Shown here piece after piece: positions 39,817-49,608 of a DNA stretch of 64,000 nucleotides (position 1 is its first letter; every line of letters starts with the position of its first letter). The translations under genes were made by a program, and so were the position numbers. The stretch comes from Brevundimonas halotolerans (GTDB taxonomy: Bacteria; Pseudomonadota; Alphaproteobacteria; Caulobacterales; Caulobacteraceae). The stretch is from the NCBI RefSeq assembly GCF_003730275.1, contig NZ_QTTA01000016.1, positions 165,001 through 229,000 on the forward strand, in the 5' to 3' direction. The notes under the pieces were generated by a model. The model was not told the DNA's origin and did not search any database. It was given only the letters and a program-made list of their open reading frames with translations.

Positions 39817-42540
39817 TTAGCCACCCAGTCGGGCCAAGGCCGCCTGATAGTTTGCCAACTGAGCCGTAAGATAGGCAGGAACCGGCCCGGAGGTCGCATT
39901 GCTGGTCGATGCGGGGGCCAGCGACCGATAGGCGTCGCGGACCGCCTTCATTGCGGCCTGCAGGCGCTCTCCTGATGCGGTGCGGGCCTCCTCGGTCAGC
40001 AGGCTCAGCGCCTGGGGCAGATCCAGCCCGAAGGTCCTGGGACCATCCTTGGTCGCCGTCGGTCCGATGAAGCCTGCGGAAAGGCCCAGACCGGCAAGGG
40101 CATCGCGCCCTGGCTCACCCGACACCAGAACCGCGCCCTCGCGGCCATCGCGGGCAGTGATCGACAGACGCTGCACCCCCGCCAGCACCGCATTCAGCCC
40201 CTCGCGGGCATTCTCCGCCGGAGCACTCTCCGAGGCGACCGTGACCTTGAGGCGAGCGCCGGATGCCAGCTCGATCTTGCGCGCCAGGGTCTGAAGGGTA
40301 TCGCGAGCATCAATGGTCACCGCCACCGCCCGTCCGCCCGAGGCCGGCACCACCGAGAACCGGTCACCCACGCGCAGCGCGGTGGCATCGACCAGCTTCT
40401 TGGACTCGCTCTGCACAATCTCTCCGGAGGGCAGGCCCAGTCGGTCCAGCACACTGCTGGCCCCGCTGGCGACCGCCAGGGTGAGCGGCGCCGCCTGCTC
40501 ATTCTGTCCGGCCCAGCTGCGGCTCCACTCGACGACCCCGGTCAGCGGATCAACGCGACTGAGATAGCCCTGCACGGGATCGTCGTCCTCGGCCGTCACC
40601 GAGCGGGCAGACGTCCCGGTCATCCACAGCTTGCCGTCCAGCAGCTTGACGTCCGAGACCGCATCCTCATTCTCGGTGCCGATATAGGTCAGCCGCTCGG
40701 CGCCGGATGCCGTCAGATCCTCCGACAGCACGGCGACAAAGGCATCGAGCCCGCCGTTGTGCGCCTGATTGACGGTTCCGACGTCCAGCGCCGCATTGCG
40801 GGTGACACCCGCGACGATCACCTGCCCCTGATCGACCTGCAGACCCTTGACCGAACCGTTCATGACCCCGAGGTCGCGCGTTGACAGTAGCTGCGGCTCG
40901 CCCCCGGCTGTCAGCTGGAAACGGCGCACGATCAGACGTCCGTCTTCCTCCCCGGCGGTATAGAGGCTGTTGCCGTTGACCGCCGTCGCCTGGACGGCAT
41001 CATCGCCCGTACTGCCGAACTGGACGGTCCCGTCGACCGTCGCGGTCCAGGCTGCGGTCGGATAGGGCTGGCTGCTGGTGAAGGCCTGCACATAGGAGTC
41101 CCAGCCCCCGATCCCGGCCGCGCCCGGCATGGCCGACTTCGCACGGCCCGTGACGATCACCTGGCCATCCGCGCTGAATTTCACTCCAGTGGCCTCGTCC
41201 GCGGCCCGTGCGCCGCGACGCTGGGTCCAGAGTTCCTGACCATTGGCGTCGTACATTGTGACGAAGCTGTCGAGCTCCCCGGCCACATCGCCGCTCTGGC
41301 CAGGTATAAGGGAGCCGGTCACCGAGCCCGCGACGGCGACCCGTCCCGCATCGTCGACCGCCAGCGCATAGCCGGACGCCTGATCGGCAGCGCCCAGTGC
41401 CCGGGTGCTGACCACGCGGCCTGCGGAGTCCAGCTTGATCAGGGCGACATCGGACTGGCCCTTGATCGGCAGATTGCCCGGGCCTTCCTCCATATCGGCC
41501 ACCAGCCACAGGGCGCCGTCCGGCCCGGTCGCGCTGGCCCGGACGGTCTTGATGCCCTCGGGCAGCGGCGTCTGGGACACGCGCCCGTCGATCCATTGCG
41601 TCTCGCCGATACGGGCGCTGGCCGGCGTCGCGGCGGTCGCCGTATCGGCCTGGAACTTCAGCACCTCATGGGCCCCGCCGGTCCCCGTTCCCTGCACCAC
41701 ATAGACGGCGTCCGACGGATCTGGCGCCGAGAAGGACACAGCCTCAGTCGACACCCCGCGTATGGCCAGCGACCACAGGTCCGGGCCCGCCGGCAGGGTC
41801 ACGGTGCGGCCGCCGACCTGCAGGGTGCGGACCTCCGCCGCCTGCCGCTCTCGCCCGATCCGTGTCTCCAGACCGGCAGCCTGAAGCTTGTCGTTGATAT
41901 GGGCCGTCACCGCCCCCAGGGTGCGCGGCGCGGTGCCCATCTCGGACAGGTCGATCCGGACTGTATGGGTGTCATTCAGCCGTTTGACGTTGATGTCGAA
42001 GACGACCGCGCCCTCGAACGCCGTCACCGGGCTCGCGACATCGCCCTCGTGGATGGGCGAAGTGATCGAGATGGCAGAGTCCCGCCGTACACCGGCACTG
42101 GTCTTGCTGAGCGACTCGGTGACCCCGGCGACCAGCCGCACGTCCTGGAGCGGGGCCGAGGCGACATAGCTGCTGATTTCCTTGAGGCCCTGATCAAACC
42201 GCTTGGTGATCAGCGACAGCTCCGTGCTGCTGACGCCCTTGACCCCGGCCCGGTTGGCGAGGGCGTTCAGGCTTTCCAGCCCCTGATAGAGGGCGAACAG
42301 ACGGCGGTAATCCTCGGACGCCGAGGTCACATCCAGCTTGGCCGCATTCTCATCAATCAGGCGTCGACCGCCCAGCGCCGAGCGGACCAGCGTATCCGCC
42401 TCAGGGACGACGGCACCGGACGACCAGGGCGGTGTCGGCTGGGCCTTTTTCGGGGCGAGCGCGGACGCGCCAAGCGCTCCTCCAGAGGAGAAGGTCGAAG
42501 TGCCTCCGAACAGGCCCAGAAGATAGCTGTTGTCGATCAT
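39817..42540 (-). CDS. FlaEY-like flagellin-associated regulatory protein
   Basis: 907 aa from ATG 42540. The N-terminal 130 residues are helical (RRLFALYQGLESLNALANRAG, TELSLITKRFDQGLKEISSY), like the ends of flagellar filament proteins. The middle carries repeated beta-propeller-like units (DVALIKLDSAGRVVSTRALG, YALAVDDAGRVAVAGSVTG, DSFVTMYDANGQELWTQRRG). The C-terminus is again helical and Ser/Ala-rich. This layout, directly beside two flagellin genes, matches Caulobacter proteins annotated FlaEY, linked genetically to flagellin expression. The biochemical role is not known. There is no signal peptide, so any export would be by the flagellar route, which is inference. Confidence 0.68.
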   Translation of the reverse strand: MIDNSYLLGLFGGTSTFSSGGALGASALAPKKAQPTPPWSSGAVVPEADTLVRSALGGRRLIDENAAKLDVTSASEDYRRLFALYQGLESLNALANRAGVKGVSSTELSLITKRFDQGLKEISSYVASAPLQDVRLVAGVTESLSKTSAGVRRDSAISITSPIHEGDVASPVTAFEGAVVFDINVKRLNDTHTVRIDLSEMGTAPRTLGAVTAHINDKLQAAGLETRIGRERQAAEVRTLQVGGRTVTLPAGPDLWSLAIRGVSTEAVSFSAPDPSDAVYVVQGTGTGGAHEVLKFQADTATAATPASARIGETQWIDGRVSQTPLPEGIKTVRASATGPDGALWLVADMEEGPGNLPIKGQSDVALIKLDSAGRVVSTRALGAADQASGYALAVDDAGRVAVAGSVTGSLIPGQSGDVAGELDSFVTMYDANGQELWTQRRGARAADEATGVKFSADGQVIVTGRAKSAMPGAAGIGGWDSYVQAFTSSQPYPTAAWTATVDGTVQFGSTGDDAVQATAVNGNSLYTAGEEDGRLIVRRFQLTAGGEPQLLSTRDLGVMNGSVKGLQVDQGQVIVAGVTRNAALDVGTVNQAHNGGLDAFVAVLSEDLTASGAERLTYIGTENEDAVSDVKLLDGKLWMTGTSARSVTAEDDDPVQGYLSRVDPLTGVVEWSRSWAGQNEQAAPLTLAVASGASSVLDRLGLPSGEIVQSESKKLVDATALRVGDRFSVVPASGGRAVAVTIDARDTLQTLARKIELASGARLKVTVASESAPAENAREGLNAVLAGVQRLSITARDGREGAVLVSGEPGRDALAGLGLSAGFIGPTATKDGPRTFGLDLPQALSLLTEEARTASGERLQAAMKAVRDAYRSLAPASTSNATSGPVPAYLTAQLANYQAALARLGG

Positions 42541-42807
42541 GGCGTGCTCTTCGCCACCCTGACGGCTGCGTCGCAATGAAGCGTTAACGTCCGTCCACGG
42601 AACCCCGAATCGTCCTAAGGGTTAATGGCACGTTCGCTGAAACGGCCCGATGGAGCTTACGTCCATGGTTGTGTTGAGTAGGCTGCTGTATTCATTCCTG
42701 TCCCTGTACGGCTTCACCAGCCGGACCGAGCGTCGGAGCCGACCGGCCCCGATTCTGATCGGACGCTCCGGCCTGCCCTGACAAGGGTAATCAGCGGGGC
42801 AGATGCC

Positions 42808-45139: not shown

Positions 45140-45207
45140 CCCGGCAGTTTCTGCCGGGCTCGACCAAAAAACGGCAGAAACTGCCGGGCTCACGGCAATT
45201 TTTGCCG
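45140..45207. promoter_or_regulatory. Three GC-rich palindromes, probable enhancer-binding sites (FlbD ftr-like)
   Basis: CCCGGCAG-TTT-CTGCCGGG (45140-45158), CGGCAG-AAA-CTGCCG (45172-45186) and CGGCAA-TTT-TTGCCG (45193-45207) share the core CGGCA-N5-TGCCG, all with a 3-bp A/T centre. They lie 72-155 bp upstream of the sigma-54 promoter, the usual distance for activator sites of sigma-54. By position and shape they resemble the ftr sites bound by FlbD in Caulobacter flagellar promoters; the match to the published consensus is from memory. The third site overlaps the last codons of the Rz1-like gene. Confidence 0.75.
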
Positions 45208-45504
45208 GTTCGAGCCTTCGGCCACGGCCTGTGCCGCCCGTTCGGCCATCAGGGTCGCGACCGCCAGTCGACGCGCCGCATCACAGGCCACCAGAGCCTC
45301 ACCGCGCGCCATATAGGCCGTCTCCAGATCCGCGAGCGTGGGCGATGGTCCCAGCGTGACGAGGCGGCAGGGCCGCGTCGCCTCGACCGGCAGGGTCAGG
45401 CGTACCGGCTCCGGCACAGAGGGCGGGCGCGTGCCGGCACAGCTCGCGGTCATGGTCATCAAGACGGCGCACCCGATCGGGCGCCAGGGGAACGTCGGCA
45501 TCAT
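45190..45504 (-). CDS. Rz1-like outer-membrane spanin lipoprotein
   Basis: 104 aa. Lipobox TASC gives Cys22, followed by AGTRPPSVPEPVRLTLP, a Pro-rich stretch typical of Rz1 (o-spanin) proteins. The remaining part is helical. It starts inside the coding region of the Rz-like gene in another frame, with 206 nt of overlap, the classic nested Rz/Rz1 arrangement of phage lysis cassettes. With the i-spanin it would fuse inner and outer membranes at the end of lysis. It is the last gene of the cassette. Confidence 0.75.
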   Translation of the reverse strand: MMPTFPWRPIGCAVLMTMTASCAGTRPPSVPEPVRLTLPVEATRPCRLVTLGPSPTLADLETAYMARGEALVACDAARRLAVATLMAERAAQAVAEGSNRQKLP

Positions 45505-45793
45505 CGGCCTCTCTTGCTTGCTGGATGGCCGTGGCGGTCACGCGCCCGACCTCGATTTCGGTTTGACGGACAGTTTCGGTCTCGCGGCTGACCATGCGGT
45601 CGCCGTCCCGCTCGGCCCGACGGGCATGGGCGTCAGCCTCAGCTGCGACCGCCCGGGACCGGGCCGCCTCCAGCCTGCGCCCCTGCAGATCGAACGGGTC
45701 CCAGCGCAGGCCCAGCCCACGCCCCGCTGCCAGCACCAGCCCGACAGCGACCAGGCCGACGATGACCCAGCTCCACGACCGCAGCGCCCTCAT
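45299..45793 (-). CDS. Rz-like inner-membrane spanin
   Basis: 164 aa from ATG 45793. An N-terminal signal-anchor helix (MRALRSWSWVIVGLVAVGLV) is followed by an Arg/Glu/Ala-rich coiled-coil region (EAARSRAVAAEADAHARRAE, RETETVRQTEIEVGRVTATA) and a C-terminus with DHDRELCRH, which fits i-spanins of the Rz type. The start overlaps the endolysin stop by 4 nt. The last third is shared, in another frame, with the Rz1-like gene. Confidence 0.78.
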   Translation of the reverse strand: MRALRSWSWVIVGLVAVGLVLAAGRGLGLRWDPFDLQGRRLEAARSRAVAAEADAHARRAERDGDRMVSRETETVRQTEIEVGRVTATAIQQAREADDADVPLAPDRVRRLDDHDRELCRHAPALCAGAGTPDPAGRGDAALPPRHAGTIAHARGSGDGLYGAR

Positions 45794-46176
45794 GCTGGAT
45801 AGACCTTCCGGTCCAGCTCGAAATGCGGACCGTCGCGCAGGCGCGGCCAGTCTCCACCCCAGACGATCTTCACGCCGCGCTCGCGCGCGGCCTGTTTGAA
45901 GGCGGCGGCAATCCGGGGATACAGCGGCCAGTCCCACCGCACCTGTCCATCAATGACCGCCGCGACGTCCACCGCGTGCCCGGTCAGATGGCGCGAGTTG
46001 AGCGTCCGGCTGGCCCCGGCCTTGACCAGTGCCGCCTGTCGCGCCGGGGACCGCAGGCCCTCGGTCACCATGAAGTCGACAGGCGACAGCGCCAGGGCCG
46101 CCCCGGCCACGGCAACCAGATCGGGGTGAACCCCCGCCAGCGCGCGGCGCGAGCGGGCGGAAAAGCGAAAGCTCAT
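45790..46176 (-). CDS. M15-family peptidase, endolysin-like
   Basis: 128 aa. Zinc-peptidase motifs of the VanY/phage L-alanyl-D-glutamate type: SRHLTGHAVDVA (His-x6-Asp pattern), TEGLRSPARQAAL with the substrate Arg, and GGDWPRLRDGPHFEL with the Asp and final His. It would cut peptide cross-links in peptidoglycan. No signal peptide, so export through the neighbouring holin-like protein is expected. Both ends overlap neighbours by 4 nt. Confidence 0.88.
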   Translation of the reverse strand: MSFRFSARSRRALAGVHPDLVAVAGAALALSPVDFMVTEGLRSPARQAALVKAGASRTLNSRHLTGHAVDVAAVIDGQVRWDWPLYPRIAAAFKQAARERGVKIVWGGDWPRLRDGPHFELDRKVYPA

Positions 46177-46448
46177 GGCCGACCTCCCGCCCCGATCCGG
46201 AATCGCACGCTCAGCGCCACCAGCTGCTGGGCGGTCGGCGCCACCAGATACAGCAGGGTGATCAGGGCGATCAGCATCAACAGCCGTTCGACAATGTCGG
46301 GCAGGGCCTCAACCGGCGCCCGCTCGACCGCCCGGTGCACCAGCGCCCACAGCGCCAGACTGGTCAGAAAGACGAACAGCCGCCGCCACAGCCAACGTCC
46401 TTCGGCCAGCGATGCGTCCTGTGTGTTCAGGGTCGGGGTATCGTTCAA
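46173..46448 (-). CDS. Holin-like small membrane protein
   Basis: 91 aa, starting at TTG 46448, which overlaps the previous stop (TTGA). Two hydrophobic helices (about residues 22-40, LWRRLFVFLTSLALWALVH, and 55-78, RLLMLIALITLLYLVAPTA) with a charged N-terminus. Size, topology and position immediately before an endolysin-like gene suggest a holin; no family signature is recognised. The TTG start would limit its translation, as expected for a lysis timer. Confidence 0.72.
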   Translation of the reverse strand: MNDTPTLNTQDASLAEGRWLWRRLFVFLTSLALWALVHRAVERAPVEALPDIVERLLMLIALITLLYLVAPTAQQLVALSVRFRIGAGGRP

Positions 46449-46609
46449 AGCTCGTCCTCCCTTTCTCTACGCTCCGGGCCACCCAACTCGCCGGCGATCT
46501 CGTCCAGACAGTCTTCCAGTGTCAGGTGGGCCGGGGCCTCCCACATCTCGGCATCCAGCAGGGGCAGGCCCCGATCCTGCGGTGCCCGGGTGTTCACGCG
46601 CCGGGTCAT
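46445..46609 (-). CDS. 54-aa acidic protein in the lysis cassette
   Basis: A short frame from ATG 46609: MTRRVNTRAPQDRGLPLLDA, then EMWEAPAHLTLEDCLDEIAG and an Arg/Glu-rich end. Its ATG overlaps the DUF2793 stop by 4 nt (ATGA) and its own stop overlaps the holin TTG, so it fills the gap exactly and is very likely translated. No family is recognised. Confidence 0.7.
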   Translation of the reverse strand: MTRRVNTRAPQDRGLPLLDAEMWEAPAHLTLEDCLDEIAGELGGPERREREDEL

Positions 46610-48000
46610 CCGACCGCCACCAGAACGATCAGGCCATCCGCCCCCGCCCCGCCCGTGCCGCCCGCCGTCACACCAGCGCCACCGCCTCCCCCGCCTGCGC
46701 CATAAAGACCGCCTGCACCGCCCGCATGGCCGACAGTCAGCGAGGCGTCGCCCCCGCCCCCACCGCCGCCACCTGGACCGTAAACCGGCTCGCTGACCGA
46801 TGTGCCTGAACTGCCGGGAGCGTCACTTCCGCCCGCACCGCCCTCGGCCGGGCGCAGCAGGGCTGATCCCGCGTCTCCGTCGTCGGCCGCCGAGATGACA
46901 TCGGCTGCGCTCAAGGCGCCTCCCGCGCCCCCGGAACCGCCCGAGACGCCGAACCAGAGACCGCCACCTGTCGCCCCGGCTTCGCCTCCCGCGCTCCCGG
47001 GCGCTCCGCCCTGACCGCCCCCGGCGGCGAGCAATTGCACCCCGTCTGACAGGATGCGGGAGAGTCCGCCGTCCATACCGGCGGCACCCCCGACCCCCAC
47101 CGTCAGGTACAGCGCACCCGGCAGGCTGTCGGTGGCCCAGACCGTGTGGCTCACGCCCCCGCCGCCGCCGCCACCACCGCCCGGTCGCTCGGTCCCGCTC
47201 GCCCCCCAGCCACCGGCACCTCCGCCACCGCCGGCCGCCACGACCGTCGCCTCGATCCAGCGCGCCCACTCCGGCGGGGACCAGCTGGCATCCTCGGTGA
47301 CCACCGTCGCCTCGCGTCGGGTCGCGCCTCGCGGAAAACTGACCCGGCCCGTCCCCGGATCGACCTTCATCGCCTCGGTCCAGGCCGAGCCGTCGGCGCT
47401 GACCTTCAGGCCAAAGGCATCCTCGCCGATCAGGCCCAGCTCGGCCCGCCCCGACCAACCGCTCTGCAGGATCAGCGACAGCACCTCGGCCGGACCGGCC
47501 TTGTTCAGCACCAGCCTCAGGTCACCCGTGCCACCGTCGCCGGTCTCGCGAGCCGTCCACAGCGCCGAGTTCAGCTTTGCCAGAAAGGGATTGGCCGCAT
47601 CCGCTGTGGCACCGATGCCCAGCCGCTCAAGGTTCTGAAGTTCGCCGAGAAAGGCCGCGAGCGGCGTCCAGTCCGCCGCGTGCCGGACCACGATCTCGCC
47701 CGTATCGACGATCACGGCGATCAGCCCGGCTGGAGCGGTCACCCGGATCCAGCCGTCGCCTTCCCTCCGCATCAGACTGCCCGCTGGATGCAGCGACCAC
47801 GCCGCCCCCTCGGCCCCGTCCGGCAGGATGTAGAGGGCGCCATCCGCGGGCTCGGTCGGCTGGGTCACCAGACTGCGGCTCGTGACGCAGCACTGCACCA
47901 GACCATCCAGCCGGGTCAGCGCCTCGTTCAGGGTCACATGTTTCTGCATCTGCCCGGCCGCCAGATAGGGCAGGCCCAGCCGTGCGCTCGTATCGCTCAT
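46606..48000 (-). CDS. DUF2793 protein with a long glycine-rich C-terminus (tail-fibre-like)
   Basis: 464 aa from ATG 48000 (GGGAGA about 7 nt upstream; TTG and GTG in-frame alternatives lie 3-6 nt earlier). The N-terminal DUF2793 domain is recognised from LGLPYLAAGQMQKHVTLNEAL and LDGLVQC. DUF2793 occurs in alphaproteobacterial prophages and gene transfer agents. The last 200 residues are a glycine-rich, beta-like region (GGGGGAGGWGASGTERPGGG, GGAGGLYGAGGGGGG), like glycine-rich adhesin tips of phage receptor-binding proteins. It is the first gene of the lysis cassette. Confidence 0.88.
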   Translation of the reverse strand: MSDTSARLGLPYLAAGQMQKHVTLNEALTRLDGLVQCCVTSRSLVTQPTEPADGALYILPDGAEGAAWSLHPAGSLMRREGDGWIRVTAPAGLIAVIVDTGEIVVRHAADWTPLAAFLGELQNLERLGIGATADAANPFLAKLNSALWTARETGDGGTGDLRLVLNKAGPAEVLSLILQSGWSGRAELGLIGEDAFGLKVSADGSAWTEAMKVDPGTGRVSFPRGATRREATVVTEDASWSPPEWARWIEATVVAAGGGGGAGGWGASGTERPGGGGGGGGGVSHTVWATDSLPGALYLTVGVGGAAGMDGGLSRILSDGVQLLAAGGGQGGAPGSAGGEAGATGGGLWFGVSGGSGGAGGALSAADVISAADDGDAGSALLRPAEGGAGGSDAPGSSGTSVSEPVYGPGGGGGGGGDASLTVGHAGGAGGLYGAGGGGGGAGVTAGGTGGAGADGLIVLVAVG

Positions 48001-48256
48001 CACCAATCTCCCGAAAAATCCTCGGAAGCAGTGTGATCAACCTGGCGACCCGGTCGGGAAGATCGCTGCGCCAAAAGACGAGCGCGTTGTTTTGGTGAAA
48101 TGTCTGGAGCGCAGCACGCACATTCAACCGTCCCGGGGCAGCGGGGAGGCATTGGAAGGGACGGGCGCCTCCCCGCTGGACGACAGTCAAACAAAGGAGG
48201 CCATGCCCGTCTGTCGTCACCCACAGCTACGGCGATCCGCCGCGGACGGATGCGAT

Positions 48257-48973
48257 CTACAGCGGCTGGAACTCGCCTTCGGCAACCACCGGGCCATCGG
48301 GACGATCCGGATTGGGCGTATGACCCGGCTCTTCCATGGACACGGCGACCGCAATGGCCTCTGTGGCCTGACCCACGATCACGCCCTCGAGATTGTGCCG
48401 CGAGGTGTCATGACCGTCGATGGCGCCGACCAGTTGCACGCCGCCCTCGTTCGGCAGGACCAGCCACAGGTGCGGGATCCGCGTGTCGCCTTCCATCTCG
48501 CGCGTCGGGGCCAGATACAGCTCACCCGTGGCGCTGTCATAAGCCAGGGTCAGGGCGGTGACGCCGTTGTCCAGCTTGAGCGTTGCGACCCGCGTAATCG
48601 ACCCGGCGACCGGCGTGGTGGCCGGATCGGGCGCAGGCGCAGGCGTGGCGATCATGATGGCGACGGCCGCCAGACTGGCGGCCAGCAGGCCTGTCGAGCC
48701 GATGGCCCAGCGGCGCCAGAAGGTGACAGCATTGTCGTTCGCCGCCCCGCCCGTCGCCGCGAGGATGCGCGGCCACAGGCTTGCCGACGGTTGCACCGGG
48801 GCAATACCGTCCGCCATATGGCTCAGCTGGTCATTCCAGCGGTCTACTTCGGCCCCAAATACGGGGTCCCGCGCAGCCTCGGCGCGCGCTGCGGCCTCCT
48901 CCGCCGGGCTCAGAACCCGCAGGGCATATTCGCCGGCCCGCGCGATGCGATCGTCGTCGTTCGAAGCGGTCAT
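48257..48973 (-). CDS. RskA-type anti-sigma factor
   Basis: 238 aa. The N-terminal cytoplasmic sigma-binding part (RIARAGEYALRVLSPAEEAAAR, RWNDQLSHMADGI) is followed by one transmembrane helix (WAIGSTGLLAASLAAVAIMI) and a periplasmic anti-sigma-K domain with YDSATGELYLAP and GQATEAIAVAVSMEEPG. It lacks the HxxxCxxC zinc motif, so it is of the RskA rather than ChrR/ZAS type. It overlaps the sigma gene stop by 4 nt. Confidence 0.92.
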   Translation of the reverse strand: MTASNDDDRIARAGEYALRVLSPAEEAAARAEAARDPVFGAEVDRWNDQLSHMADGIAPVQPSASLWPRILAATGGAANDNAVTFWRRWAIGSTGLLAASLAAVAIMIATPAPAPDPATTPVAGSITRVATLKLDNGVTALTLAYDSATGELYLAPTREMEGDTRIPHLWLVLPNEGGVQLVGAIDGHDTSRHNLEGVIVGQATEAIAVAVSMEEPGHTPNPDRPDGPVVAEGEFQPL

Positions 48974-49527
48974 TGTTCCAGACAGCTCCTCAGTTTCAGC
49001 AGCCCCCTGCGAATCCAGCTTTTCATCGTGCCGAGCGGCGTCTCTTCGCGCTGGGCCAGAACCTCATAGGTGACGCCCTCGAAAAAGGCGGTGCGGATAA
49101 CGCGGCTGACCTTTTCGTCGAGTTCATCGAGGCATACGCCCAGACGCCCGGCGTCATCCGCCAGTTCGATGTGGTCCAGGGCCGAGGGCGCGCCATCGGC
49201 CAGGTCATAGGCCGCATCCACCGGCACGCTGTTGCGCGCGATGGCCCCCGAGCGCAGCCGGTCGATCGACCGGTTCCGTGCGATCGTCACCAGCCACGTG
49301 ATGGGACTGGCGCGGCCGGGGTCAAAACTGGCGGCCTTGTTCCACACGGTCAGATAAATCTCCTGCATCACGTCCTCGGCCAACTGCCGGTCAGACAAGA
49401 TACGCAGGCATACGCCCATCAGCTTCGCAGAGGTCGCTTCATACACACGGCGAAACGCCGCACGGTCCCCCTGACCGGTCTGTCCGAGCGCTTCGGACAG
49501 GGCATCACGATCGAATACAGCGGTCAT
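48970..49527 (-). CDS. ECF RNA polymerase sigma factor (SigK-like)
   Basis: 185 aa from ATG 49527 (CAGGAGA upstream). Region 2 is KLMGVCLRILSDRQLAEDVMQ-EIYLTVWNKAA (given in part) and region 4 is DEKVSRVIRTAFFEGVTYEV plus GTMKSWIRRGLLKLR. The pairing with an RskA-type anti-sigma downstream identifies a membrane-stress or redox-type ECF module. The regulon is unknown; an autoregulated promoter upstream was not obvious. Confidence 0.95.
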   Translation of the reverse strand: MTAVFDRDALSEALGQTGQGDRAAFRRVYEATSAKLMGVCLRILSDRQLAEDVMQEIYLTVWNKAASFDPGRASPITWLVTIARNRSIDRLRSGAIARNSVPVDAAYDLADGAPSALDHIELADDAGRLGVCLDELDEKVSRVIRTAFFEGVTYEVLAQREETPLGTMKSWIRRGLLKLRSCLEQ

Positions 49528-49608
49528 TCGGTCTCCTGCCGACCCCAAGGGCGCCAATAGGCGGAGGGGAGCCTGCTTCGTCAATCCCTTCGGGCGGCAA
49601 AGCCGGTC

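Follow-up and report, generated by a model that had tools for sequence, protein, structure and literature searches.

A predicted tail-fibre and lysis operon beside the flagellin genes of Brevundimonas as a probable auxiliary operon of its gene transfer agent

Release of gene transfer agents and related lysis systems

Several described systems bear on the release of gene transfer agents (GTAs). RcGTA particles are released through holin–endolysin lysis under the control of GafA. The lysis genes of RcGTA form a separate rcc00555/rcc00556 locus, which encodes a GH108-type enzyme. The RcGTA tail-fibre domain is DUF2793, carried by rcc00171 and reported to co-evolve with GTA genes (PMC8265664, PMC10883770). 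In Caulobacter crescentus, GafY, IHF and GafZ are reported to regulate the promoters of the GTA cluster and of accessory genes, with the GafY site and the core promoter lying on either side of IHF. A homologue of the RcGTA tail-fibre gene in this organism is reported to be GafYZ-induced. Holin and endolysin homologues are reportedly absent from C. crescentus, whose lysis is attributed to the CARD-NLR-like (immune-like) LypABC system. A complete lypABC set is present in just four of 11 GTA-encoding Caulobacter species.

The Brevundimonas operon described here shares features with each of these systems and differs from each. As in RcGTA, a DUF2793 tail fibre is encoded outside the structural cluster. 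Unlike in RcGTA, the predicted tail fibre, holin, M15 endolysin and spanins share a single operon. A Pfam search of this genome for GH108 gave no match, the controls being equally silent. Brevundimonas belongs to the same family as C. crescentus and has a GTA cluster related to CcGTA. Since C. crescentus reportedly uses LypABC, without holin or endolysin, the predicted holin–endolysin–spanin cassette of Brevundimonas would be a different release route. The Serratia ChiWXYZ system likewise comprises a holin, a peptidoglycan endopeptidase and two spanins, whereas the Brevundimonas operon is led by a predicted GTA tail fibre, has a GTA-type promoter and carries no chitinase or toxin cargo. Gene order and the nested Rz1 are those of phage holin–endolysin–Rz/Rz1 cassettes. 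In contrast to those cassettes, the Brevundimonas locus is fixed in the chromosome, and the tail fibre is the sole phage structural gene beside it. No report of the operon was found in the openly licensed full-text literature.

Layout and components of the operon

The window, meaning the whole 64-kb stretch of DNA analysed, contains the operon on its minus strand. The genes occupy positions 45190–48000, and the promoter and leader (approx. 48001–48141) lie outside the coordinates first given. The features, in order of transcription, are as follows.

48030..48141, minus strand: promoter aligning in register with that of this genome's GTA structural cluster (own-promoter scan, alignment)
48008..48028, minus strand: 5' leader hairpin, a CUCC-type sequence paired with the GGAG Shine–Dalgarno sequence that immediately precedes the tail-fibre ATG
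46606..48000, minus strand: DUF2793 protein with a Gly-rich C-terminus, predicted GTA tail fibre (Pfam PF10983, 1.3e-21)
46445..46609, minus strand: 54-aa protein with the conserved motif L-D-x-E-x-W-E-x-P and a conserved position
46173..46448, minus strand: holin-like protein with two hydrophobic segments (hydropathy, alignment)
45790..46176, minus strand: M15 endolysin of the L-Ala-D-Glu peptidase type (phrog_465 'endolysin', 6.4e-61; Pfam M15_4, 8.5e-12)
45299..45793, minus strand: Rz-like i-spanin with an N-terminal TM segment (phrog_214, 1.5e-4, weak; hydropathy)
45190..45504, minus strand: Rz1-like o-spanin lipoprotein, inside Rz in another frame (phrog_456, 3.4e-4, weak; LysC, 0.0043)

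Open reading frames and profile matches bear out the gene content, order and coordinates given by the first-pass annotation, including the 4-nt overlaps at the four successive junctions DUF2793/54-aa/holin/endolysin/Rz. Most of the compared genomes have the 54-aa frame between the DUF2793 and holin genes, as a rule overlapping them by 4 nt; it received no family name from Pfam or PHROGs. The holin-like protein has no family match above chance in Pfam, PHROGs or NCBIfam. The endolysin has no apparent signal sequence. Its zinc-site motifs, SRHxxGHA and GPHFEL, are conserved among aligned relatives, its closest solved relative is ChiX (structure 5opz, 2.9e-43), and phage proteins match it at up to 68% identity. 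The lipobox cysteine of Rz1 is present in all 18 aligned Rz1 sequences. A two-TM holin, a zinc-motif endolysin and an i-/o-spanin pair with a lipobox are thus predicted, as expected of a holin–endolysin–spanin cassette; the holin is assigned by topology, and the spanins by topology together with weak family matches.

Two neighbouring loci can be recorded here. Genes for an ECF sigma factor and an RskA-type anti-sigma factor lie directly upstream of the operon (48257–49584). Downstream of the flagellin genes, a 919-aa open reading frame (39817–42576) has only weak Pfam matches.

The DUF2793 gene of the operon is the sole DUF2793 match in this genome. Across the family, 75 of 149 genomes are positive for DUF2793, each with a single copy. 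The protein is predicted to be the counterpart of RcGTA rcc00171, a GTA tail fibre. Because DUF2793 is the RcGTA tail-fibre domain and its only copy in the genome is located here, the cassette is tied to the GTA. The locus had been suggested to be a captured lysis device. The lysis set itself stands, but the operon is more than that, since a predicted GTA component is encoded together with it.

GTA cluster and candidate activator

A GTA cluster is present on another contig (C6) of the same genome, encoding terminase, portal, capsid, a tape-measure-like protein, DUF2460, baseplate hub, an NlpC-like protein and GTA_TIM (gp15). GTA_TIM, terminase, capsid and DUF2460 each have one match in the genome, all on C6. 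Searches for these four proteins gave zero matches within the window, as follows for terminase, capsid and DUF2460 from the confinement of their matches to C6. The reported absence of capsid and terminase from the window is therefore upheld. Terminase genes approximately 50–60% identical to the GTA terminase occur additionally in several Brevundimonas genomes. Terminase matches located away from the GTA cluster, as seen in several genomes, were not taken as its first gene. The GTA_TIM match is split in two in G066, G147 and G171, and the capsid match is split also in G171 and G066. These split matches suggest decaying GTAs.

Approximately 20 kb beyond the GTA cluster, a DnaA-C-like (gafY-like) gene overlaps a DUF6456 gene and is divergent from a ctrA-like response regulator gene. 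The pair would correspond to gafYZ, an assignment made from domains and the published description rather than by alignment to CcGTA sequences. A gafY-like match is present in all 24 genus members searched. The upstream regions of gafY (L113–L136) share a recurring TAGGA-N6-TTCCTA-like palindrome, a possible repressor site. Both the structural genes and the GafA/GafYZ-type activator that the first-pass annotation had proposed to look for thus have counterparts in the genome.

Promoter and leader

The predicted operon promoter comprises an upstream GafY-site-like block, an IHF-like region at approximately -57, a shared block at approximately -20 and a -10-like element at 48030–48035. When the GTA-cluster promoter of the same genome (-105 to -12) is scanned along both strands of the window, the operon promoter ranks first of 127,816 positions (51/93 identity, z 6.4). 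The same own-promoter scan was applied to 14 other genomes, covering 3–8 kb around the operon. The operon promoter ranks first in eight of these, second in one and 21st–25th in three; the scan fails in two, G112 (rank 1248) and G049 (rank 4666). In a -10-anchored alignment of 15 genomes, all-pair identity between GTA and operon promoters is 0.395 at one offset, and 0.23–0.31 at all other offsets from -12 to +12. Identity within a genome is 0.479, versus 0.408 with genomes permuted (p=6e-5). The -10 anchors were picked by eye; the rank test needs no anchors, and a free-offset comparison is noisier than the anchored version. IHF-like sites (8/9 or better) are found in five of 16 GTA promoters (0.6 expected) and in seven of 22 operon promoters (0.9 expected), several of them near -56/-57.

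A promoter of one architecture thus appears to be common to the structural cluster and the operon, with two of the 15 genomes (G049 and G112) not showing it. This predicted promoter is the strongest evidence for the GTA link. In the leader, a CUCC...GGAG inverted repeat is present in 21 aligned Brevundimonas sequences, and the 19 that were folded yield -8.6 to -16.5 kcal/mol. That the hairpin gates translation is a guess.

Conservation and genomes without the GTA marker

Conservation of the cassette at this place, raised as a check by the earlier reading, is seen across the Brevundimonas genomes compared. The holin has a match in 116 of the 131 genomes of the genus. DUF2793 is adjoined by the endolysin in 19 of 24 genomes, and in three more the pieces of DUF2793 and endolysin are found at contig ends. 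Where the locus was checked, the cassette lies between cca or the ECF/anti-sigma genes and the flagellin genes, in many species. The reading frames are mostly intact, and pairwise dN/dS values of 0.07–0.55 indicate purifying selection. With the same order recurring across the genus and these dN/dS values, the arrangement of genes is not a product of chance. A search of IMG/VR viral_contigs records for holin relatives returned 13 pattern matches, none of them a relative. No spanins were identified in G049, G066, G112 and G127, nor in G229, G203 and G197. G078 and G087, genus members with GTA genes, carry DUF2793 with no adjoining cassette. In G016, from another genus, a different lysis-type gene encoding an M15_3 peptidase directly follows DUF2793 (L226, 4283–4714).

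Contrary to expectation, the holin is kept in 19 of the 22 Brevundimonas genomes without GTA_TIM. Synteny with G147 reveals that most of the GTA cluster has been deleted from G254, yet the cassette there is intact. Within the G254/G147 clade, dN/dS is about equal in the GTA-negative and GTA-positive genomes compared. Damage to a core gene (DUF2793, holin or endolysin) affects three of nine assessable TIM-negative genomes versus none of 19 marker-positive genomes, three of the latter having a split GTA_TIM match. The cases are G193 (endolysin not found), G253 (frame break in the tail fibre) and G164 (frame break in the endolysin). Fisher's test, calculated by hand, gives p ~0.026 for a comparison that was chosen post hoc and in which draft-assembly errors are possible. 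Recent loss of the GTA would account for both the kept holin and the excess damage in TIM-negative genomes. A second function of the cassette besides GTA release is possible.

Alternative explanations

The main rival reading is a type 10 secretion-like system, in which a domesticated holin–hydrolase–spanin cassette exports particular proteins rather than GTA particles. ChiX, the nearest relative of the endolysin with a solved structure, belongs to Serratia chiWXYZ, a set of holin, hydrolase and spanins; the cassette is often retained where GTA_TIM is missing; and flagellin genes adjoin it. Against export of such proteins, the co-operonic gene encodes a predicted GTA tail fibre and neither a chitinase nor a toxin, the operon promoter matches that of the GTA cluster, and M15 endolysins of the same type are common among phages, with 1,235 matching phage records. 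Among the operon genes examined, only the tail-fibre gene and the 54-aa frame accompany the cassette, and no type 10 cargo is found. A secretion function of this kind is considered quite unlikely. The operon might instead serve another phage-like particle, such as a resident prophage or tailocin, and share no more than a promoter type with the GTA. The extra terminases described above and the persistence of the cassette beyond GTA_TIM in some genomes would fit such a particle. However, the one terminase match and the one capsid match in the genome of the window fall within the GTA cluster. Service to another particle is very improbable.

The first-pass annotation had offered two readings of the locus, service to a GTA encoded elsewhere or a remnant. 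That a decayed prophage has left a remnant persisting by accident is hardly credible. Phage-type genes with no capsid, terminase or portal nearby are what a remnant would leave, but the same locus recurs in many species between the same neighbours, its frames are mostly intact and under purifying selection, its promoter is of GTA type, and its holin family was not found in viral_contigs. Service to a GTA gains support from the cluster elsewhere in the genome, the gafY/gafZ-like pair, the DUF2793 tail-fibre domain and the GTA-like promoter.

Proposed role and implications

The operon is very probably an auxiliary operon of the Brevundimonas GTA, devoted to its tail fibre and lytic release. The following course of events is proposed. 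(i) A GafY-type activator with IHF, and perhaps GafZ, would switch on the structural cluster and the operon together, the two loci being coupled by promoters of the same architecture. (ii) The hairpin over the ribosome-binding site may time translation. (iii) The holin would give the signal-less endolysin access to the cell wall. (iv) The Rz/Rz1 spanins would then fuse the membranes, rupturing the outer membrane. (v) Lysis of the producing cell would release particles carrying the DUF2793 tail fibre.

A more specific proposal is favoured on balance, with less assurance. A genus-specific holin–endolysin–spanin module, wired into the tail-fibre operon under a GTA promoter, would release the Brevundimonas GTA, so that receptor-binding protein and lysis proteins are co-produced. 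Lysis genes may have arrived at the tail-fibre locus more than once, for which the M15_3 gene after DUF2793 in G016 is cited.

How GTAs leave cells outside Rhodobacter has been an open question, to which the operon offers a candidate answer for an entire sister genus. The sequence-based GTA promoter signature could serve to locate further GTA genes. If the proposal is correct, a single family would contain GTA lineages released by no fewer than two unrelated machines, with LypABC and the Brevundimonas cassette as the examples.
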